Shown here: positions 3,879-14,093 of the stretch, in pieces | Position numbering within the stretch: the first letter of the stretch is position 1 | Layout: the number at the start of each line of letters is the position of its first letter | From: Phragmitibacter flavus | Lineage (GTDB): Bacteria > Verrucomicrobiota > Verrucomicrobiia > Verrucomicrobiales > Verrucomicrobiaceae | NCBI RefSeq assembly: GCF_005780165.1 | Contig: NZ_VAUV01000006.1 | Coordinates: forward strand, 186,001 to 250,000 | Direction of reading: 5' to 3' | Length of the DNA stretch: 64,000 nt | Position numbers and translations under genes: made by a program | Notes under the pieces: generated by a model | Databases searched by the model: none | Told to the model about the DNA's origin: nothing | The model's input: the letters and a program-made list of their open reading frames with translations, nothing else

Positions 3879-5630
3879 TCACTGTGCCTCATAGTCAACC
3901 TGCCGCCCACGCAAGCGCCATTGATGGCATCCAAAAACCCCTAATCCAGCAAGCAAGAACACCACGAGCAGCCCTCCGCTGATCAGCCAGCCTTTCCCAT
4001 CCATCACTCCCGAAAAGCCTAGCAATGCCGCCGCACATACCAGCATCACCAAAGCCAGAATTAATGTTACCACGGCAGCGAAAATGTAGGTTCCCAAAGC
4101 CACCCATCCCCCACGATGACACTTCATCACCGTGCTCATCCGATGCATTACCAACAACGGTCGCACCGCCATTAGCAACAACAAAACTCTCAGCCCTACG
4201 CTTGCAGTGATCAGCGCCGTCGCACCATCCTTCAGCCACCATACCATGATCACACCCAATGGCAGCAGCAACATCGTCGCAATGCTCCGCACCAACACAA
4301 TCTTCACAGAAATCCTTAACAGATCCCAAGCTCCCACTGGAAACCCGGCGAGAAACGGAATGTTTTTTATCCCCGCCGGCCACGCCATCACCGCATCCGA
4401 CACCCCACCACTCCACGGCATCACCAAAACCAGCAGAAGGCCCGCCCCCATCATCCCGCCCCATACAAAAAACATCTCCACATATTCTTGGGGGATTTGA
4501 TGCGAAAGCAACTGCACCGCCGCCAGCATCACGGCCAGTCCCAGACTACCCAAGGCCGCCTTCCGCCAACGCTGCGACCAGTTCGGCGGCACCATCACCA
4601 GCACCGCAAAGACTGCCCGGTCCCGCGCATTTAACCAACTCAAACCCCATCGCTCAACCCACCCCGCCTCCAACAAACGCGCCGCCTCTCCACCTCTCAA
4701 CTGCTCCTTCATCAGCGCCCTATCAGGCACTGCCTCAGCCTTCTCCGCCTGCGCCTCCAAGTCCTCAGCGTCATGATCCGGCCACAACTCATCAAACGCC
4801 GGAGCCGCCGTCATCGGCCACCGCAACCATCCGCGGAATCCCACCAGCACCACCACCATCGTCAACAGCATTCCCCACCATCCAAACGCTGTCGTATGCG
4901 GCTGCAACATGCCCGCCACCCATGAAGCGGGCATGAGCCACACCAGCCACGGGGACAATCGCTCCAACCATTCCACCATCGGCAGCCAAAACCATCCGTG
5001 CTCCACCGACAGCCACAGGATCACCAAGCCCGGAATCGTCCCCATGCGCAGCCAATGCCAGACGCGGTCCAGCTTCACCCGGCACATCCAATCACTCGCC
5101 TCAACAAAAGGCCATGCCACCGTCAACATGCCCATCACCACCCCCGGCACCAGCCACGACAACACTTCCGTCAATTCGAGCGCCTCCGAAGCTCCGCCGA
5201 GCCACCAACAAGCCACGCATGCACGCAGCAAAATCGGCCAGGTCCTCCACAATGCCCTTGCCCGTGACCACCTCAAAATTCGCCCTCCAGCCGCTGGCAA
5301 TGTCCACAACATTCGTGCCTCCGGAGACGCGAATGAGTGAAATTGCAGCAAGTTGCCGACCAGGCCACCACTGAACAGGAACCACCAGCCCACCACGACC
5401 AACTGGCAATCCCACGATGCCAGCTCCGGCTGATGCCACCCCAAAAAACTCAACATGGCCAGCGTCCAAAATACCTGCATGGCCAAAAAGCCAGCGAGTG
5501 CAGTCACCTTGCGAAAGTCCCCGCGCGAACGCTGCAACTTTCCACCACGACCCGACTCCCGCTCGATCGCCAACGCCCTCAACACGGCCTCTTTCAGACG
5601 TCGTTCCACCGCCGGATTCCACCAGTTCAT
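3879..5630 (-). CDS. ABC transporter permease, multi-spanning membrane protein
   Basis: 583 residues, rich in Trp and in hydrophobic segments. I count roughly 11-12 possible transmembrane helices, starting after a basic N-terminal cytoplasmic stretch (ERRLKEAVLRALAIERESG). A long hydrophilic loop near residues 270-320 is Asp/Glu-rich. No substrate-specific motif is visible. Its ATG overlaps the stop of the ATPase gene (ATGA at 5627-5630), so the pair is almost certainly translated together and forms one ABC-2-type exporter. Substrate unknown. Confidence 0.75.
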   Translation of the reverse strand: MNWWNPAVERRLKEAVLRALAIERESGRGGKLQRSRGDFRKVTALAGFLAMQVFWTLAMLSFLGWHQPELASWDCQLVVVGWWFLFSGGLVGNLLQFHSFASPEARMLWTLPAAGGRILRWSRARALWRTWPILLRACVACWWLGGASEALELTEVLSWLVPGVVMGMLTVAWPFVEASDWMCRVKLDRVWHWLRMGTIPGLVILWLSVEHGWFWLPMVEWLERLSPWLVWLMPASWVAGMLQPHTTAFGWWGMLLTMVVVLVGFRGWLRWPMTAAPAFDELWPDHDAEDLEAQAEKAEAVPDRALMKEQLRGGEAARLLEAGWVERWGLSWLNARDRAVFAVLVMVPPNWSQRWRKAALGSLGLAVMLAAVQLLSHQIPQEYVEMFFVWGGMMGAGLLLVLVMPWSGGVSDAVMAWPAGIKNIPFLAGFPVGAWDLLRISVKIVLVRSIATMLLLPLGVIMVWWLKDGATALITASVGLRVLLLLMAVRPLLVMHRMSTVMKCHRGGWVALGTYIFAAVVTLILALVMLVCAAALLGFSGVMDGKGWLISGGLLVVFLLAGLGVFGCHQWRLRGRQVDYEAQ

Positions 5631-6361
5631 GGGATCTCCTCCCGCATCCCGCGAAACAGTTCCGCGACCTCCACCCCCTCGTCCTTCAACCGTCTTTTGA
5701 CACTTTCACTGCTCTCCCACAACGCCACCCGACCCTCATTCAAAAGACAAATATAGTCGGCAAAGCCCACCGCCATCTCCGCCAGTTGGGTCGTGTAAAT
5801 CACCAGGCCACCTTCATCCGCCAAACTCCTGGCCACCCGTTTGAATGCCGCCAGCCCCAACACATCCATGCCCGAGGCAAAAGGTTCATCCACCAACCAC
5901 AACTCTGGACGCACCGCCACCGCACAAGCCAAAGCCAGCTTCCAAACCTGACCACGAGACAATGTGCCCGCTTCCTTCAATACCAATCCAGCCATGCCCG
6001 TTTCCTGCAACAATTCCACAATTCGCTCCTCCCGCTCCGCAGCATTCTTCTCATACACCTCAAGAAAAACCGCCAGATTGCGCAACACAGATTTCCCCGG
6101 AAAAAACATTGGTGACTCCGAGGTGAACAACAACCTGCGTCGCAAATCCAGCCGTTCACGATGAAACACCTCGCCGTCATATAGCACTGTGCCTGCGTCC
6201 AAAGCTGACACCCCGGCCATCACCTTCAACAACGTCGACTTGCCTGCTCCATTCAATCCAAGAACGGCCACCACACTGCCCGCAGGCAAATCCAAAGTCA
6301 GCTCATCCAGCGCCACCGTTCCGCCGAACCGCTTGCTGATCTCGTTTAATCTTGCACGCAT
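5627..6361 (-). CDS. ABC transporter ATP-binding protein
   Basis: 244 residues from ATG 6361; a GTG 30 bases upstream is in frame but would only add ten residues ahead of the usual first strand. Walker A is GLNGAGKST (about 35-43), the signature is the divergent TLSRGQVWK rather than LSGGQ, and Walker B is PELWLVDEPFAS. A switch His is replaced: the H-loop position reads YTTQLAEMA. The cognate permease is encoded 4 bases overlapping downstream. The atypical signature and the missing H-loop His are common in ABC-2 exporter ATPases of the CcmA/NatA type. Confidence 0.88.
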   Translation of the reverse strand: MRARLNEISKRFGGTVALDELTLDLPAGSVVAVLGLNGAGKSTLLKVMAGVSALDAGTVLYDGEVFHRERLDLRRRLLFTSESPMFFPGKSVLRNLAVFLEVYEKNAAEREERIVELLQETGMAGLVLKEAGTLSRGQVWKLALACAVAVRPELWLVDEPFASGMDVLGLAAFKRVARSLADEGGLVIYTTQLAEMAVGFADYICLLNEGRVALWESSESVKRRLKDEGVEVAELFRGMREEIP

Positions 6362-6450
6362 CGCGCCAGTTATACCTGGATCATCGAACACGACAATCCT
6401 CGCGTTCCAAATCCTTCACTTACGCCACACAGCCTCGTCCCTTACACTGT

Positions 6451-6894
6451 TCACCCATCCAGCTTGTGCTTGAGCCGCTTCAATAATTCCGCGTTCCCCT
6501 CCAACTCCTCCACAATCAACGTCAACACCCGCAGCGTGCTTTTGCTTACGTGATGCTCCATGCCTTCCACATCACGATGCACCGTCTCCGGATCTAGCCC
6601 GAACCCCGCCAGCAGGCGCGTCAGCACATCATGCCGCCTCGCAATGGCCTGCCCGACCCGTTTGCCTTCCGGCGTCAAGGTTACGCCGCGATACCGCTCA
6701 TAATTCAGATACCCTTCCGCATCCAGCTTCTGAATCATGTTCGTCACACTGGCCTGCGAAATCTTCAAATTCTGCGCGATGTCCACCACCCGTGCATAGC
6801 CCTTGCTCTCAATGAGATTGTGAATCTGCTCCAGATAATCCTCGATCGCCGGGGACTGGCTGTTGGGTGAGCGTTCTTTGCGTGCGGCAGGCAT
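6451..6894 (-). CDS. mntR: Manganese-dependent transcriptional regulator, DtxR/MntR family
   Basis: 147 residues, the short MntR size without the SH3-like domain. N-terminal winged helix: IEDYLEQIHNLIESKG, VVDIAQNLKISQASVTNMIQKL, GYLNYERYRGVTLTPEG. The metal-binding/dimer part includes RRHDVLTRLLAGFGL and VHRDVEGMEHHVS, with the Glu and His residues that bind Mn(II) in MntR. With metal bound the family represses Mn importers. It is divergent from the metal transporter genes that start at 6995, sharing a 100-base intergenic region with a candidate operator. Mn as the effector is inferred from family and context; Fe is possible. Confidence 0.88.
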   Translation of the reverse strand: MPAARKERSPNSQSPAIEDYLEQIHNLIESKGYARVVDIAQNLKISQASVTNMIQKLDAEGYLNYERYRGVTLTPEGKRVGQAIARRHDVLTRLLAGFGLDPETVHRDVEGMEHHVSKSTLRVLTLIVEELEGNAELLKRLKHKLDG

Positions 6895-6956
6895 AATCGA
6901 CGTTCGTCATCATCCCGCACTCACGCGCCGGTTTCAACCAGAAAGCAAAATAGTGC

Positions 6957-6985
6957 TTGCAAACAAAATTAGCCCAGCCTAAAAC
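6957..6985 (+). promoter_or_regulatory. Candidate sigma70-type promoter of the metal uptake operon
   Basis: TTGCAA at 6957-6962 and TAAAAC at 6980-6985 are separated by exactly 17 bases and lie just before the start codon of the substrate-binding protein (6995). Only ten bases separate the -10 box from the ATG, so the mRNA would be almost leaderless; that is a weakness of the assignment. Confidence 0.4.
6969..6982. promoter_or_regulatory. Candidate DtxR/MntR-type operator
   Basis: TTAGCCCAGCCTAA is an interrupted palindrome whose outer four bases pair perfectly (TTAG/CTAA), matching the outer half-sites of IdeR/DtxR boxes. It lies between the proposed -35 and -10 boxes, where bound repressor would block polymerase. 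Five of seven symmetric pairs match, so chance cannot be excluded. Confidence 0.4.
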
Positions 6986-6994
6986 TGTTAGCAT

Positions 6995-7921
6995 ATGAAA
7001 TCTTTGCGATTTTTCGTTCCCGCCGTTCTCGGCCTGCTGCTCAGCGCCTGCGGACCCCAGTCCGCGTCCACCGACACGCGTCTCGCCGTGCTCACCACCA
7101 CCACCATGATCACCGACATGGTGCGCGAAGTTGGCGGTGAAGACATTGCCCTCATGCCGCTCATGGGTGCTGGCGTCGATCCCCACCTGTATAAACCTTC
7201 CGCGTCCGATGCCCGCAAAATGCGCGAAGCCAAAGTCGTCTTCTACAACGGCCTGCTCCTCGAAGGCCGCATGGGCGAACTCTTTGAACAAGTCCGCAAC
7301 GATGGCGGTGCCGTCCACGAACTCGGAGCCACCGTGCCCGCCGACAAACAACTCGCTGCCGATCACGATCATCCTGATCCACACATCTGGTTCGACCCCG
7401 AACTCTGGATCACCTGCATCGACGTCGTCGTCAACGGACTCGCCGCAGCCGATGCCCCCCACGCCGAAAACTACCGCCAGCGCGGAGCCGACCTCAAAGC
7501 CCGTTATCAAGCCGTCTTTGATCGCTGCAAAACCCTCGTCAACGAGATCCCCGCCAGCAACCGCGTGCTTATCACCAGTCACGACGCCTTCAATTACTTC
7601 GGTCGCGCCTTCGGATTCGAAGTCGTCGGCGTCCAGGGCATCAGCACCATCGCCGAAGCCGGTCTCGCCGATGTCGCCAAAATGGTCGACTTCATCAAAC
7701 AGCGCAGCGTCAAAGCCATCTTCGTCGAGTCCAGCGTTGCCCACGCCACCATCGAGCGCATCAGTCGCGACTCTGGAGCCAAAGTCGGTGGCGAACTCTT
7801 CTCCGACGCCCTCGGCACCCCTGGCGACACCTTTCAATTTGAAGGCACCACCTATGACAAAGGCACCTACGAAGGCGCCCTGCTCTACAACGTCACCACC
7901 ATCGTCAACGCCCTTAAATAA
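6995..7921 (+). CDS. mntA: Metal ABC transporter substrate-binding lipoprotein (Mn/Zn, TroA-like)
   Basis: 308 residues, normal for cluster A-I (TroA/ZnuA/PsaA) proteins. Lipoprotein signal ends LLLSAC with Cys19. The four metal ligands of TroA are all recognisable: His64 in VDPHLYKPS, His130 in DPHIWFDPE, His196 in TSHDAFNYFG and Asp271 in FSDALG. A short His/Asp loop (DHDHPDPH) before the second ligand resembles, in small, the His-rich loop of ZnuA. It captures the metal in the periplasm for the permeases encoded downstream. Zn versus Mn cannot be decided from the ligands; the divergent MntR argues for Mn. Confidence 0.9.
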   Translation: MKSLRFFVPAVLGLLLSACGPQSASTDTRLAVLTTTTMITDMVREVGGEDIALMPLMGAGVDPHLYKPSASDARKMREAKVVFYNGLLLEGRMGELFEQVRNDGGAVHELGATVPADKQLAADHDHPDPHIWFDPELWITCIDVVVNGLAAADAPHAENYRQRGADLKARYQAVFDRCKTLVNEIPASNRVLITSHDAFNYFGRAFGFEVVGVQGISTIAEAGLADVAKMVDFIKQRSVKAIFVESSVAHATIERISRDSGAKVGGELFSDALGTPGDTFQFEGTTYDKGTYEGALLYNVTTIVNALK

Positions 7922-7925
7922 TTCC

Positions 7926-8696
7926 ATGCACCTCATCCATCAAATCACTGCCTCTCTGCTGCTGATCTCCACCGTTGCCGCCCAACCCCGCGAACTGAGC
8001 ACCGACCGACCCGACACCACCGAAAGCGCCAGCACGGTTCCCAAAGGTTTCGTTCAGATTGAGACCGAACTCGCCGCCTATGGCCACGACGGTGATACCA
8101 ATTCCAAGTCTTGGGCCTTCGGTGAATTCAACTTCAAATACGGCGTCACCGATTCCCTCGATCTTCAACTCGTCGTCTCAACGTGGCAACGTGTCGAACA
8201 AGCCAGCGACATCGCTGAAGGTTTCGGCGACATCAGCGTCCGCGCCAAGTTCAACCTCTGGGGCAACGACGGCGGCAAAACCGCATTGGCATTGATGCCT
8301 TTCGTCACCTTCCCCACCGGCAGCGATGGCATCAGCAGCGGCGGCACCGAAGCCGGACTCATCATCCCGCTCGCCATCGAACTCCCCGAACCCTTCGGCC
8401 TCGGCCTGATGACCGAAATCGACGCCGTCTACGATGAAACCACCGACGACCACTCCGTTGAATGGGTCAACTCCATCGTGCTCGGCATCGACCTCATTGC
8501 GGACACCGGAGCCTTCATCGAATTTGTCAGCATCAGTTCCTTTGCCTCCGACGGCGAATGGCTGGGTTACCTCAACACCGGCCTCACCTGGCAGCCCCTT
8601 CCCGATCAACTCCAGTTTGACGGCGGCATTCGCATCGGCACCAATCGCGCCGCCGAAGATCTGGTCTTCTTTGTCGGTTGCTCCACCCGCTTCTAA
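7926..8696 (+). CDS. Putative outer-membrane beta-barrel transporter (Phenol_MetA_deg-like)
   Basis: 256 residues from ATG 7926, four bases after the mntA stop. Signal peptide ITASLLLISTVAAQ, then STDRPDTTESASTVPKGFVQ, the opening that marks the PF13557-like family of small outer-membrane barrels. Alternating hydrophobic strands and a C-terminal Phe (CSTRF) fit barrel insertion. The family is poorly characterised, often annotated only as transporter. Its place inside the metal uptake operon suggests a channel that brings the metal through the outer membrane; that is inference. Confidence 0.75.
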   Translation: MHLIHQITASLLLISTVAAQPRELSTDRPDTTESASTVPKGFVQIETELAAYGHDGDTNSKSWAFGEFNFKYGVTDSLDLQLVVSTWQRVEQASDIAEGFGDISVRAKFNLWGNDGGKTALALMPFVTFPTGSDGISSGGTEAGLIIPLAIELPEPFGLGLMTEIDAVYDETTDDHSVEWVNSIVLGIDLIADTGAFIEFVSISSFASDGEWLGYLNTGLTWQPLPDQLQFDGGIRIGTNRAAEDLVFFVGCSTRF

Positions 8697-8713
8697 CCAC
8701 GAAGATAAATCCC

Positions 8714-9481
8714 ATGAGCACCGCGCTCGAACTTCACGACCTCACCGTCTCCTACCACAAAAAACCCGTCCTCTACGGCGTCGACCTCACCGTCCCCGAA
8801 GGTTCCCTCGTCGGCCTCATCGGACCCAACGGTGCCGGCAAAAGCACCCTCATCAAAGCCGTCATGGGACTGCTTCCTGTCAGCGGCGGTTGGGTCAAAG
8901 TCTTCGACGAACCCTTCGCCAAGGCCAAACGCCGCGTTGGTTATGTGCCCCAGCGCGAATCCGTCGACTGGGACTTCCCCGTCAACGTCATGGACGTCGT
9001 GCTCATGGGTCGCTACGGCCATCTCGGCTGGCTGCGCCGACCCGGCAAAGCCGACCGCGAAAAAGCCCGCGAAGCCCTCGACAAGGTCGCCATGCTTCCC
9101 TACGCCAACCGTCAAATCTCCAACCTCAGCGGCGGCCAGCAACAACGCGTTTTCCTCGCCCGCGCCCTTGCCCAGGAAAGCGATCTTTACCTGATGGATG
9201 AACCGTTTGCCGGCGTCGATGCCGCCACCGAACGCGCCATCATCACTCTTCTTCAAGACCTCAAATCACGCGGCAAAACCATTCTTGTCGTCCACCACGA
9301 TCTCACCACCGTGAAGGAATACTTTGATCGTCTTGTGCTCCTCAACATGCGCGTCGTCGCCAGTGGACCCACCAACGAAATCTTCACCGTCGACCTCCTG
9401 CAAAAAACCTACGGCGGCCGACTCACCCTGTTGAGCGACGTCGCCGAAGCCAGTGCCAAAAGCGAACAAGGAGTGCATTGA
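8714..9481 (+). CDS. mntB: Metal ABC transporter ATP-binding protein (MntB/ZnuC-like)
   Basis: 255 residues from the ATG at 8714; the in-frame start at 8678 would run into the preceding gene. Walker A is GPNGAGKST (37-45), Q-loop VGYVPQRESVDWDFP is the characteristic form of Mn/Zn/Fe chelate importers, signature LSGGQQQRVFLARAL, Walker B LYLMDEPFAGVD, H-loop LVVHHDL. It energises the two permeases encoded next. GAACAAGGAG near its own 3' end may serve as the ribosome site of the following gene. Confidence 0.93.
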   Translation: MSTALELHDLTVSYHKKPVLYGVDLTVPEGSLVGLIGPNGAGKSTLIKAVMGLLPVSGGWVKVFDEPFAKAKRRVGYVPQRESVDWDFPVNVMDVVLMGRYGHLGWLRRPGKADREKAREALDKVAMLPYANRQISNLSGGQQQRVFLARALAQESDLYLMDEPFAGVDAATERAIITLLQDLKSRGKTILVVHHDLTTVKEYFDRLVLLNMRVVASGPTNEIFTVDLLQKTYGGRLTLLSDVAEASAKSEQGVH

Positions 9482-9485
9482 TTCG

Positions 9486-11009
9486 ATGACTCACGGATCA
9501 CCAACCCATGGAGCGCCGACGTATCGTCGGTCATCATCGCCTCAATCGGACCACCGACGTTTCGTCGGTCAAAAAACCATGGAGCGCCGACGTATCGTCG
9601 GCCATCAGTCAATCTTCATCCTCCTTCTACTCCTCCTCCTCCCCTCGTCCCTTCACGCCGCCCGCATCGGCGACCTCACCGACACTGACATCCTCGAACA
9701 AGCCCTGCGCTTCTTCAGCTTCCGCGATGAAGCCCTGCGCACCGCCCTGCTCGGCTGCATCCTCCTCGGACTCAACTGCGGACTGCTCGGCAGCTTTGTC
9801 GTCGTCCGCCGCATGTCTCTCGTCGGCGATACCCTCTCCCACGCCGTCCTCCCCGGCATCGCCCTTGGGTTTCTCTGGAACATGAGCAAGGACCCCGTCG
9901 TCATCCTCATCGGTGCCACCGCCGCCGGTGCGCTCGCGATGCTCACCGTCAACGCCATCACCCGCACCACCCGATTAAAGGACGATGCCGCCATGGGCCT
10001 CGTGCTTTCCTCTTTCTACGCCATCGGCATTTGTCTCGTCACCATGATCCAACGGTTGCCGACGGGCCAAAAAAGCGGCATCGACAAATTCCTCTTCGGC
10101 CAGGCCGCCGCATTGACCCCCTCCGAAGTCTGGGTCATGGCTGGCACCTCGCTCGTGTCGCTGACCTTCCTCGCCCTCTGCTATCGCGGCCTGCTCGTGC
10201 TCAGCTTCCATCGTGAATTCGGCGAATCCCTCGGCCTGCGCATGGCATGGATGCATCACGCCCTCATGCTGCTCACCGCTTTTGCCGTGGTCACCGCCAT
10301 GCAGGCCGTCGGTGTCGTGCTCGTCTCCGCGATGCTCATCATCCCCGCGTCCACCGCCTACCTGTTGACCGACCGAATGCATCGACTCGTCATCATCGCC
10401 GCTGTCATCGGCATGCTCTCCGCCGTCCTCGGCGCGTTCTTCTCCTTCCTCGGCAACAACTTCCCCACCGGCCCCTTCATGGTCCTCGCCGGTGCCGCCC
10501 TTTTCAGCATCGCCTTCCTGTTCAGTCCCCGACACGGCTGGCTCACCCGCATGTGGCGCCATTACTCACGACGCCGCCGCACCGAACGAGAAAACACCCT
10601 CAAAGCCATGTATCACGTCCTCGAAGACCGCGACTTCCACGGCGAAGGCGTTTCGCTCGTCGACCTCGCCCAGCGCCGACGCGAAACCATCGAAGAAGTC
10701 ACCCACCGCGCCGCCGCCCTCAAGAACGCCCACCTCGCCACTCTCACCGACGACGGCACGATTCTGCATTTCACCCCTCAAGGTCTGCAAAAAGCCAAGG
10801 CCATCGTCCGCAACCATCGCCTCTGGGAACTCTACCTCACCAACGTCATGTTATACGAAAGCGATCACGTCCACGAAGACGCCGAAAAAATCGAACACGT
10901 CATCGGCGAAGATCAAGTGCGCCAGCTCGAACGGCGACTCGACTTCCCCGAAACCGATCCCCACGGCAAAGAGATCCCAAAAATCTCCTCCGTTTCCCAC
11001 CGCTCTTGA
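9486..11009 (+). CDS. mntC: Metal ABC transporter permease fused to a C-terminal DtxR-like regulator domain
   Basis: About 507 residues if translation starts at ATG 9486 (AAGGAG at 9466-9471); an ATG at 9579 gives 476. After a hydrophobic leader, residues ~65-360 form an ABC-3 family permease (VVRRMSLVGDTLSHAVLPGIALG is the family hallmark), about 8-9 helices. From about residue 370 follows a cytoplasmic DtxR/IdeR-like region: LVDLAQRRRETIEEVTHRAA as winged helix, LHFTPQGLQKAKAIVRNHR, then LWELYLTNVMLYESDHVHED with AEKIEHVIGEDQ and FPETDPHGKEIP, matching the metal-binding dimerisation domain. Ordinary permeases end before this point (~300 residues). The domain may sense cytoplasmic metal and gate transport, or bind DNA; neither is shown. 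Confidence 0.88.
   Translation: MTHGSPTHGAPTYRRSSSPQSDHRRFVGQKTMERRRIVGHQSIFILLLLLLLPSSLHAARIGDLTDTDILEQALRFFSFRDEALRTALLGCILLGLNCGLLGSFVVVRRMSLVGDTLSHAVLPGIALGFLWNMSKDPVVILIGATAAGALAMLTVNAITRTTRLKDDAAMGLVLSSFYAIGICLVTMIQRLPTGQKSGIDKFLFGQAAALTPSEVWVMAGTSLVSLTFLALCYRGLLVLSFHREFGESLGLRMAWMHHALMLLTAFAVVTAMQAVGVVLVSAMLIIPASTAYLLTDRMHRLVIIAAVIGMLSAVLGAFFSFLGNNFPTGPFMVLAGAALFSIAFLFSPRHGWLTRMWRHYSRRRRTERENTLKAMYHVLEDRDFHGEGVSLVDLAQRRRETIEEVTHRAAALKNAHLATLTDDGTILHFTPQGLQKAKAIVRNHRLWELYLTNVMLYESDHVHEDAEKIEHVIGEDQVRQLERRLDFPETDPHGKEIPKISSVSHRS
9506..9601. repeat. Cluster of three short palindromes at the mntB-mntC junction
   Basis: CCGACGTATCGTCGG occurs at 9516-9530 and 9587-9601 and CCGACGTTTCGTCGG at 9554-9568; each is a six-base perfect inverted repeat around three central bases. 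The outer two sit in identical 25-base direct repeats (9506-9530 and 9577-9601). The arrangement is that of a REP/BIME-like element. It lies inside the open 5' part of the permease gene, and the second candidate start codon (9579) is within a repeat copy. Confidence 0.85.
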
Positions 11010-11019
11010 GTTCCATCCC

Positions 11020-11964
11020 ATGCAAACGCTGATTCCCAGCTTCGATGCCCACCTGGTTCTCGTCGAACCCTGGACCACCGCGCTGCCCACCTACGGCTGG
11101 ATGGTGTTGATGGCCTTCCTTGTCACCGCCACCTGCGGCCTCATCGGCAACTACCTCATCCTGCGCCGCATGGCCCTGGTCGGCGACGCCATCAGCCACA
11201 GCGTCCTGCCCGGACTCGCCATCGCCTTCCTCATCACCGGCGGTCTCAGCCTTCCCGCCATGCTCGCCGGAGCCCTCGGTGCCGGATTGCTCACCACCTC
11301 CATGATCGAGTTCATCCATTCAAAATCTCGCATCAAAGCCGACGCCGCCATTGGCATCACCTTTTGCACCCTCTTCGCCCTCGGCGTCGTGCTCATCAAC
11401 GTCTTCGCCTCCCGCGTCCATCTCGATGCCGACTGCGTCCTCTACGGCGAACTCAGCTATCTCCACAAACCCGCCGATGCCATCGCTCCGCGCCCCGTGC
11501 TCATCATGGGCGGTGTCGGTCTCACCGTCGCCGCGCTCATCGCCTTTTTTTATAAGGAACTCCTCGTCAGTTCCTTCGATACCATGCTCGCCGCCTCGCT
11601 CGGTTTCCGACCAAAAATCATCCATCTCTGCCTGATGGCCATGCTCTCCATCGTCATCGTGGCCGCCTTTGAATCCGTCGGCGCCATCCTCGTTATCGCC
11701 ATGCTCATCCTCCCCGGAGCCACCGCCCAGCTCATCACCAACCGGCTCGCGCCCTGCCTTTGGCTCAGCGTTCTCCATGCCGCCCTCAGTGCCGTGCTCG
11801 GACTCCATCTCGCCGTCTGGCTCGATTGCTCGATGGCCGGAGCCGTCGTCGTCGCAGCAGCCTTCCTCTTCACCCTCGCCTGGATCTTCGCCCCCGGCGG
11901 CATCCTCGCCGGTCGACGCGGCGCCACGGCCGATCCCCTGCTCGACTCACCCCTTTCGTCCTAA
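11020..11964 (+). CDS. mntD: Metal ABC transporter permease (MntD/ZnuB-like)
   Basis: 314 residues from ATG 11020, ten bases after the stop of the first permease. ABC-3 family with LILRRMALVGDAISHSVLPG (contact with the ATPase) and about nine membrane segments; GAILVIAMLILPGATAQLIT is the conserved penultimate helix region. Unlike its partner it has no regulator domain. Two different permeases form the heterodimeric channel as in TroCD or SitCD. Last gene of the operon; no T-rich hairpin follows. Confidence 0.9.
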   Translation: MQTLIPSFDAHLVLVEPWTTALPTYGWMVLMAFLVTATCGLIGNYLILRRMALVGDAISHSVLPGLAIAFLITGGLSLPAMLAGALGAGLLTTSMIEFIHSKSRIKADAAIGITFCTLFALGVVLINVFASRVHLDADCVLYGELSYLHKPADAIAPRPVLIMGGVGLTVAALIAFFYKELLVSSFDTMLAASLGFRPKIIHLCLMAMLSIVIVAAFESVGAILVIAMLILPGATAQLITNRLAPCLWLSVLHAALSAVLGLHLAVWLDCSMAGAVVVAAAFLFTLAWIFAPGGILAGRRGATADPLLDSPLSS

Positions 11965-12011
11965 CAAAATTGTGATGTTCGCCTTCAACGCGACTTGATA
12001 GAGTGTCGCGG

Positions 12012-13103
12012 ATGAAACACCGCACCTTTCTCAAGACCCTCGCCGCAACGGCCACCTCCTGGCTCACCTCGCGCCACGGACTCTTCTCCCAAGAGACACC
12101 GAAACTCGTCCAACCGCCCTTCGCTCCGGTTGTCCCGCAAACCCCCTTCGACGCCCCCGCCGGCACCTGGACCCTTGCCGTCCTGCCCGACACCCAATAC
12201 TACTCACAAAACTTCCCCGACGTCTTCGTCCGCCAGACCGAGTGGATCGCCGCCCACAAGACCAGCCATCAAATCCTCTTCGTTGCCCATGAAGGCGACA
12301 TCACCAATCACAACACCCCCGAACAATGGACCCGCGCCCAAAAAGCCATGCGTGTGCTCAACACCGCCGCCGTTCCCTATGCCCTCGTTCCCGGCAATCA
12401 TGACCTTGGAGACAACGGCAAAGCCAACGATCGCAGCACGTTGATGAACGACTATTTCTCCCCCGCCGACTACCAGCACAGCCCCGGCCACATCCTGTTC
12501 GAACCCGGCAAAATGGAGAACAGCGCCCACCCCTTCCAAACCCCCACCGGCAAACAACTGCTCCTTGCCCTCGAATTCGGCCCCCGCGACGAAGTCATCA
12601 ATTGGGCCAACACCATCGCCACCCAACACGCCGATCATCAAATCACCATCGTCACCCACGCCCATCTTTACTCCGACAACCTCCGCAACGACTGGACCAT
12701 TGACGGCGTCGAAGGCAACAAAAAGCGCGGCAACCCCAAAGTCTACGGACTCAACACCAACAGCACCGTCAACGACGGCGAACAAGTCTGGCAAAAGCTC
12801 GCCAGCAAACACGCCAACATCCGTTTCATCCTCAACGGCCACATCACCTCCGACCTCGGCACCGGCCTCCTCACCAGCACCGCCACCACCGGTCAAACCG
12901 TTCATCAAATCCTCGCCAACTATCAGGACAACTCCCCCAACAAAGGCGGCACCGTCATGCCCGCCAAAGGCCACGGCGGCGGCGGATTCATGCGTCTGAT
13001 GCAATTCCATCCCGACGGCAAAACCGTGCAAATGAAAACTTATTCCCCTTGGTATGACCAATGGCTGACCGAACCCAACCAGCAGTTCAGCTGCTTGCTT
13101 TAG
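12012..13103 (+). CDS. Exported calcineurin-like metallophosphoesterase
   Basis: 363 residues from ATG 12012 (a GTG nine bases upstream is in frame). N-terminus MKHRTFLKTLAATATSW resembles a Tat-type signal with one Arg (RTFLK), followed by a cleavage-like region. Metal-binding motifs in order: LPDTQ (atypical of DxH), HEGDITN, PGNHD, THAHL and LNGHI. These bind the two metals of the phosphoesterase fold. Length and the PDTQYYSQ opening match secreted bacterial phosphoesterases often found in verrucomicrobia and planctomycetes. Substrate unknown. No operon partner is obvious. Confidence 0.8.
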   Translation: MKHRTFLKTLAATATSWLTSRHGLFSQETPKLVQPPFAPVVPQTPFDAPAGTWTLAVLPDTQYYSQNFPDVFVRQTEWIAAHKTSHQILFVAHEGDITNHNTPEQWTRAQKAMRVLNTAAVPYALVPGNHDLGDNGKANDRSTLMNDYFSPADYQHSPGHILFEPGKMENSAHPFQTPTGKQLLLALEFGPRDEVINWANTIATQHADHQITIVTHAHLYSDNLRNDWTIDGVEGNKKRGNPKVYGLNTNSTVNDGEQVWQKLASKHANIRFILNGHITSDLGTGLLTSTATTGQTVHQILANYQDNSPNKGGTVMPAKGHGGGGFMRLMQFHPDGKTVQMKTYSPWYDQWLTEPNQQFSCLL

Positions 13104-13148
13104 GTCCGGCCCCATGGGCAGCATGCTCTTGACCCCACGGAGGCGGCT

Positions 13149-14093
13149 GTGCTAACCTCATTCATCATGCGTGCCTCAAATCACTCCGACTCCAAGGCCC
13201 CACGCCGCACCATTTTTGCCATTCTCGCCTCCGCGCTGCTGTCCACGCCCCTGACTGCCGCCGTCTCCCTTGCCAGCGGCAACTACACGGAAAATTTCAA
13301 TGCGGCCCTCGATCCCAACGCCTGGACCTTGTCCAACGTCGGCGTCCGCGCCTACACCGACGGCGGGCGACCCAACGTCACCGTCGCCGCCGCCGGAGGC
13401 GATGGTCTTGTCTCAGGCACCGCCCCCGCCGGCACCAATATCGGCGACATCCTCACCTCCATCAAACCCGCCGGCTCCTATGCCTCCCTTGGTTTTTCAG
13501 GCAGCTGGCTCACCAACAACAGCGCCCCTGCCGGTCCCGTCAACGGCGACCTGACCTTCACCCGCACCGCCACCCTCTCCTTCGACTCCCTCGGCACCCA
13601 CAGCCAAATTGACAGCATCAGCTTCCTGCTCGCCGCTGGCGACAGCATCGACGGTGTCGAAGGCGTGTTCGAGGTGCTTCTCGATGGCAACGTTATTTTC
13701 CGTCGCGACTTCGAATCCGGCGGCACCCTCCGCACCAGCGGTTTCTCCACTGGATTTGAAGACGTCGGCACCGGCATCACCCCTCTTGCCACCGCCGCCA
13801 ATCTCCTCGGTGCAGGCTTTTACCGCGAAACCTGGTCCGCAGGAGCCACCACCACCGCCAACCGTTTTGCCGAAAGCTGGACCGTCGAATCCGCCTACCA
13901 AATCAATCTTCAAAACATCGCCCACAGCTCCGACACCCTCTACCTCCAGTTTGTCTGGCGCGGTTTCAACAGCGACTTCAGCGACGAGTTCCTCGCCATC
14001 GACAACCTCGCCGTCAGTGTCCCCGAGCCAAGCCGCTTCCTTCTACTCTGCAGCTCCCTCGGCCTCATCCTCATGCGCCGCCGCCGTCATTGA
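13149..14093 (+). CDS. PEP-CTERM sorted extracellular protein
   Basis: 314 residues from a GTG at 13149, which has GGAGG six bases upstream; an ATG at 13167 is the alternative and lacks such a site. Signal peptide TIFAILASALLSTPLTAA. The body is beta-rich with Gly/Thr/Asn and no catalytic motif. The C-terminus has the sorting tail: VSVPEPSRF, a hydrophobic stretch, then MRRRRH. Proteins of this class are exported and processed by an exosortase; no exosortase gene lies in the window. Role unknown, possibly matrix or surface. Confidence 0.8.
   Translation: MLTSFIMRASNHSDSKAPRRTIFAILASALLSTPLTAAVSLASGNYTENFNAALDPNAWTLSNVGVRAYTDGGRPNVTVAAAGGDGLVSGTAPAGTNIGDILTSIKPAGSYASLGFSGSWLTNNSAPAGPVNGDLTFTRTATLSFDSLGTHSQIDSISFLLAAGDSIDGVEGVFEVLLDGNVIFRRDFESGGTLRTSGFSTGFEDVGTGITPLATAANLLGAGFYRETWSAGATTTANRFAESWTVESAYQINLQNIAHSSDTLYLQFVWRGFNSDFSDEFLAIDNLAVSVPEPSRFLLLCSSLGLILMRRRRH

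Follow-up and report, generated by a model that had tools for sequence, protein, structure and literature searches.

In the window, by which we mean the whole stretch of 64,000 nucleotides of Phragmitibacter flavus DNA that was analysed, a gene encoding a permease that continues into a DtxR-like domain lies within a compact ABC transporter operon. The gene order is mntR, read divergently, followed on the opposite strand by the genes for a periplasmic metal-binding protein (SBP), a putative outer-membrane protein (OMP), an ABC ATPase, the permease/DtxR fusion and a second permease (Table 1). The fused permease is an ABC-3 protein, a metal permease subunit of the YtgC/PsaC type, and the imported substrate is probably a divalent metal, Mn2+ or Fe2+.

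Table 1. Genes, domains and other features of the operon, with their positions in the window
Feature	Position	Strand	Basis or remark
Standalone MntR, 147 aa, winged helix and metal domain intact	6451-6894	-	Pfam, NCBIfam, 1on1
Candidate MntR operator TTAGCCCAGCCTAA	6969-6982	.	In the mntR-SBP intergenic region
Periplasmic metal-binding protein, ZnuA/TroA/YtgA type (SBP)	6995-7921	+	PF01297, E 3.5e-69
Putative outer-membrane protein	7926-8696	+	PF13557, E 3.6e-15
ABC ATPase, YtgB/MntA type	8714-9481	+	PF00005, E 8.9e-29
Permease-DtxR fusion protein	9486-11009	+	Alternative start ATG 9579; Pfam and AlphaFold2
Genome-wide interspersed repeat, 3 copies	9498-9607	+	Overlaps the fusion gene's 5' end
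ABC-3 transmembrane domain	9690-10538	+	PF00950; model on 7kyp_P
Continuous helix, last membrane segment to DtxR helix 1	10539-10628	+	Model helix 321-350
Winged-helix remnant, fold kept, DNA-reading signature lost	10572-10790	+	1bi2_B alignment, profiles
Recognition-helix equivalent	about 10689-10727	+	Inside the winged-helix remnant
Metal-binding/dimerisation domain	10773-10982	+	PF02742; SloR 5cvi alignment
Second ABC-3 permease, without DtxR domain	11020-11964	+	PF00950, E 1.7e-50

The divergent gene had been taken for an MntR in a preliminary description of this DNA, and this assignment is borne out: the protein matches PF01325 (E 2.4e-20) and PF02742 (E 3.1e-13), scores 155.6 bits with NCBIfam PRK03902 (cut-off 138) and aligns with B. 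subtilis MntR 1on1 (E 1.1e-34), with the ligand positions conserved. The PF13557 ('Phenol_MetA_deg') protein encoded downstream of the SBP gene is possibly an outer-membrane metal channel; its homologues occupy the same place in part of the related operons (e.g., L034, L038, L073, L131 and L147). The open frame of the ATPase begins at a TTG (8678), and the first ATG is the one given in Table 1. A search for riboswitches within 5500-13200 gave no Rfam match.

One chain with a permease and DtxR domains 1 and 2

Pfam recognised two domains in the fusion protein, ABC-3 (PF00950) at residues 92-357 (E 9.8e-69; 232 bits, cut-off 20.1) and Fe_dep_repr_C (PF02742) at residues 441-510 (E 2e-25; 89 bits, cut-off 27); the DtxR DNA-binding model PF01325 had no match in this protein. 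An AlphaFold2 model of the product of 9579-11009, computed with 63 homologues as input, reached a mean pLDDT of 90 and a pTM of 0.83. Residues 38-320 of the model superpose on chain 7kyp_P of the manganese permease PsaBC (Z 36.7, rmsd 1.9 over 271 residues, 33% identity) and residues 332-473 on residues 3-139 of DtxR 1bi2_B (Z 19.9, rmsd 1.9 over 137 residues, 26% identity), and the winged-helix fold of DtxR domain 1 is present in the predicted structure. From this alignment the fusion therefore comprises DtxR domains 1 and 2, the SH3 domain being absent. The 'complete DtxR-like domain' of the preliminary description thus stands as regards its fusion to an ABC-3 permease in one chain, and has to be narrowed to domains 1 and 2, without the SH3/FeoA part. 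The winged-helix remnant and the metal-binding/dimerisation pattern reported there after the permease were both recovered, the former as a fold on 1bi2_B and the latter as the PF02742 match, and the structure prediction suggested there returned a PsaC-like permease followed by the two DtxR domains. The two parts are joined in a regular way: in the model, helix 321-350 runs unbroken from just past the membrane domain into DtxR helix 1, and the linker, counted from a Gly to the helix-1 Glu/Gln, is exactly 18 residues long in 128/128 homologues.

The frame at 9453-11009 (+) is open without a break from the permease through to the end of the DtxR domain. This continuity is common to relatives at 50-70% identity, with no frameshift at 9486-11009. 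None of the in-frame ATGs at 10479, 10551 and 10608 has a Shine-Dalgarno-like sequence, and the Met of helix 1 is a Met in only 11% of the homologues, so that there is no conserved internal start. Because neither a frameshift nor such a start was found, translation of the C-terminal domain as a protein of its own, the outcome against which the preliminary description had set its reading, was ruled out. The start that it had placed at 9486 is possible, lying behind AAGGAG, and is uncertain because copies of a genome-wide repeat fill the 5' end of the gene; ATG 9579 is the alternative. This repeat is short and palindromic, and its core, GGAGCGCCGACGTATCGTCGG, occurs at 39 places in the genome with at most two mismatches, against 0 for the reversed control. 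It would be translated if 9486 is the start, and ATG 9579 lies inside its last copy.

Metal sites and DNA-reading surface of the fused domain

In SloR, metal site 1 is formed by H76, E80, C123 and H125 and site 2 by D7, E99, E102 and H103 (PMC9253540). Alignment of the window protein to SloR 5cvi gives H455, E459, D502 and H504 as the equivalents of site 1 and N381, E478, E481 and H482 as those of site 2; H474 takes the position of DtxR H98. The window protein is identical to SloR at H76, E80, H125, E99, E102 and H103, C123 being replaced by Asp and D7 by Asn. The latter residue, N381, sits just upstream of the metal domain, in helix 1; an Asn at this position, rather than Asp/Met, is also found in 8/20 representative standalone regulators. 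Among 43 unbiased fused representatives, H76, E80 and E102 are invariant, H103 is present in 42/43, position E99 holds either acidic residue (Asp or Glu), position D7 varies among His, Asp and Asn, with a single Gln, and the C123/H125 pair is less regular, H125 occurring in only part of them. Loci L073-L152 were retrieved via metal-domain motifs, which in part builds ligand conservation into that set; the conclusion is drawn from the loci found by whole-protein similarity and from the separately sampled Bacteroidota. Judged by these alignments, both DtxR metal sites are largely kept in the fused domain.

The DNA-reading part of the domain gave a different picture. PF02742 matched every fused member scanned in three sets (23/23, 22/22 and 63/63), which overlap, and PF01325 matched 0/23, 0/22 and 1/63 of the same sets (E 0.076, under the cut-off), at best 1/108, whereas the standalone DtxR/MntR proteins from these loci matched both models in 40/40 cases. 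Positions of the recognition helix that are strongly conserved in 42 standalone domains (e.g., T 85%, M 92%) are unconserved in 128 fused ones, and the wing, with a Gly in 100% of the 42 standalone domains, is eroded among the 128. With equal sampling of representatives, the information content of fused versus standalone domains was 1.69 versus 2.60 bits in the recognition helix and 1.88 versus 2.62 bits in the wing, but 2.87 versus 2.63 bits in the metal/dimer domain. Since some loci had come from metal-domain motifs, the comparison was repeated with the whole-protein-similarity loci only, and yielded 1.83 versus 2.60 for the recognition helix, 1.95 versus 2.62 for the wing and 2.65 versus 2.63 for the metal/dimer domain. 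Likewise, for 18 loci with the operator ACTTTGAnTAnTCAAAGT, between-locus identity of the recognition helix was 0.25 for fused versus 0.61 for standalone domains, and that of the metal domain 0.63 versus 0.72. In the second permeases of three loci that carry a DtxR domain on both permeases (L048, L052 and L067), the helix-turn-helix (HTH) is partly deleted and the ligands of the head are invariant; from helix 1 to the wing, the L067 model has a single intervening helix and the window model two. Loss of positive charge from the recognition helix was dropped as evidence, the net charge being equal in fused and standalone domains.

Taken at the level of sequence, these comparisons show that the DNA-reading signature is lost across the fused family, and they strongly suggest that the fused domain does not bind DNA; by its profile matches, the domain falls outside the DtxR transcription factors at their DNA-binding feature, PF01325. 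Kept metal ligands together with lost DNA-contact residues in homologous fusions, the combination named in the preliminary description as favouring a gating role, are thus found at the family level, in the ligands, PF01325, information content and identity alike. The core residues of the winged helix are conserved in the fused domains and the fold is kept, and the domain could therefore bind something, even DNA in a new way.

Distribution, variants and the standalone regulators

The permease-DtxR fusion is real and widespread. It was found in at least 38/288 sampled genomes of Verrucomicrobiota, counted by hand among the matches listed, and in about 18/198 of Bacteroidota, and a scan of genome contigs recovered mainly Verrucomicrobiota and a few other records. 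Viral contigs yielded only plain permeases, and plasmids yielded plain permeases or split matches.

The arrangement varies between lineages. Ten Verrucomicrobiota genomes have twin heads, that is, a DtxR domain on both consecutive permeases (L040, L044, L046, L048, L050, L051, L052, L061, L063 and L067); the first head is mostly of the D98/D102 type and the second of the H98/E102 type, and most of these loci have a standalone DtxR gene nearby. In Bacteroidota, three-domain fusions with a C-terminal SH3/FeoA-like part were recognised at L195 and, by eye, at L197 and L198. The permeases of L196, L197 and L198 are followed by a three-domain DtxR that includes this part, and the 12 kb around each of these fusions contained no recognisable SBP or ATPase of this type. 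In other Bacteroidota metal ABC operons (L182-L194, L199 and L200), both permeases end in a short winged-helix remnant without the metal domain; the winged helix may therefore have a role unrelated to metal.

All of the fusion genomes searched (42/42) also encode a standalone PF01325 protein, 40 of them over the cut-off. In most loci whose standalone regulator is of the 147-aa MntR type, TTAG-N6-CTAA stands upstream of the SBP gene; here TTAGNNNANNCTAA occurs with at most one mismatch in 8/11 loci (mean 1.27 versus 2.87 in shuffled sequence), while ACTTTGAnTAnTCAAAGT is the counterpart in loci whose regulator is of the 220-aa DtxR type (mean mismatches 3.0 versus 6.5 in shuffled sequence), statistics that are descriptive, the motifs having been noticed and scored in the same loci. 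The palindromic ACTTTGAnTAnTCAAAGT lies upstream of the SBP gene in L066, L135, L142, L144, L146, L040, L130 and others. The window has the copy TTAGCCCAGCCTAA, and TTAGCC-N4-CTAA occurs 3 times in the whole 5.9 Mb genome. Operator type tracks the type of standalone regulator, even where the fused domains are closely related. In a quick tree of 137 columns, with many unresolved forks, fused and standalone domains were separated, with 99% SH-aLRT on the standalone side. An account of transcription that does without the fused domain is thus available in the separate MntR and its candidate operator, and the 'two levels of control' proposed earlier fit this arrangement.

Possible roles of the fused domain

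Because the DNA-reading surface is lost and the metal sites are kept, the metal probably throttles its own pump. A sensor acting on the transporter would be consistent with the fixed helical linker, the conserved sites, the lost DNA reading and the twin heads in ten genomes, and we consider it rather probable that the C-terminus of the permease is a metal-dependent, non-DNA-binding sensor derived from DtxR, from whose sequence and model we infer gating of the divalent-metal importer. When cytoplasmic metal rises, the DtxR heads would bind it and, once metal-bound, dimerise or reorient; pairing would occur between the two heads of one transporter in the twin-head relatives, and possibly between two transporters in the window. 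The rigid helix would pass the movement of the head to the membrane domains or the ATPases, and import would stop, a feedback inhibition as in MetNI or ModBC with a sensor taken from a transcription factor. In those two transporters, cytoplasmic substrate on a C-terminal regulatory domain stops transport (PMC10710835). The likeness lies in the proposed principle only, trans-inhibition by cytoplasmic substrate; their sensors are on the ATPase and have other folds, unlike the DtxR-derived one proposed here on the permease. Metal-dependent feedback inhibition of import would be the best fit.

Related systems differ in where the regulator is placed. Treponema TroABCD-TroR, streptococcal PsaBCA/PsaR and SloABC/SloR combine the same transporter type with a regulator from the same family (in the model the window permease matches PsaBC, and its head aligns with SloR), but their regulators are separate, soluble and DNA-binding, the streptococcal ones with an SH3/FeoA domain. 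With DtxR, IdeR and MntR the window head shares the fold of domains 1 and 2 and the metal ligands; unlike them it is part of a membrane protein, has no SH3 domain, and its recognition helix and wing are unconserved. No description of a sensor-only DtxR permease was found in the open-licence literature.

The permease-DtxR architecture itself has a precedent, absent from the preliminary description, in Chlamydia trachomatis YtgCR (CT069), whose single chain runs from an ABC-3 permease into a DtxR-like domain, and ytgA-ytgB-ytgCR-ytgD, likewise for divalent-metal import, has the gene order of the window's core operon. YtgCR is cleaved during infection and releases YtgR (PMC5599777, PMC7755916, PMC6504234), an iron-dependent, DNA-binding repressor (PMC5599777, PMC7755916). 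Compared with published descriptions of YtgCR, the verrucomicrobial family appears to differ in its lost DNA-reading signature, and the window in having a separate MntR with a candidate operator of its own. If the window's C-terminal domain were set free and then repressed the operon in a soluble, metal-dependent form, this would agree with the shared architecture and gene order, YtgR being a proven repressor, with the winged-helix fold in the window model, and with the existence of three-domain fusions whose HTH is better preserved (L195). We nevertheless regard such a release as unlikely: the fused family has lost its DNA-reading signature, some twin heads have a part-deleted HTH, a standalone repressor with a matching candidate operator is present, and the fixed, helical 18-residue linker offers no obvious loose segment for cleavage.

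Equally doubtful is a head that serves as a cytoplasmic metal acceptor, buffer or chaperone and passes the ion on, the transporter not being closed. Kept ligands with lost DNA reading would suit such a role, as would the cytoplasmic placement of the head relative to the channel and its occurrence on either one permease or both; against it, the metal sites of DtxR lie where domains meet and serve for sensing, the dimer interface is also conserved, and a pure acceptor would need neither a winged helix nor a rigid linker of fixed length. It is still less probable that the membrane head pairs with soluble MntR/DtxR, tethering or metallating it and so linking transport state to transcription: every fusion genome searched has a possible partner, often adjoining the fusion, and the dimerisation domain is conserved in fused and standalone proteins, but no change is visible in the heads whether the partner is a 147-aa MntR or a 220-aa DtxR, and the fused domains branch apart from the standalone ones. 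Were the domain a relic of an ancient fusion, in decay and without present function, this would explain the poorly conserved winged-helix surface and the stepwise reduction between lineages, from three domains down to a lone winged helix; such a reading is nonetheless very improbable given core metal and interface residues that are (nearly) invariant across phylum-wide divergence and a constant linker length.

For the metal-gated sensor that we favour, a wider history can be proposed, to which we give even chances: importers of Verrucomicrobiota and Bacteroidota would have captured a whole DtxR sensor as a gating head, with loss of DNA reading and retention of metal sensing, including twin heads with two sensor types (D98/D102 and H98/E102) that could pair within one transporter, alongside a sister lineage that retained the winged helix only.

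To our knowledge, the permease-DtxR fusion has one studied case, that of Chlamydia, in which it serves to deliver a repressor. In the fusions of free-living relatives and of Bacteroidota the sensor has apparently been turned from gene control to direct control of the pump, which raises the question of whether uncleaved chlamydial YtgCR also regulates transport. The twin-head transporters provide a built-in two-sensor arrangement that is open to structural study. If true, gating by the fused head would mean that the small group of ABC importers known to be trans-inhibited gains a metal-gated class, and that these bacteria can control metal quickly at a second level, in addition to MntR.
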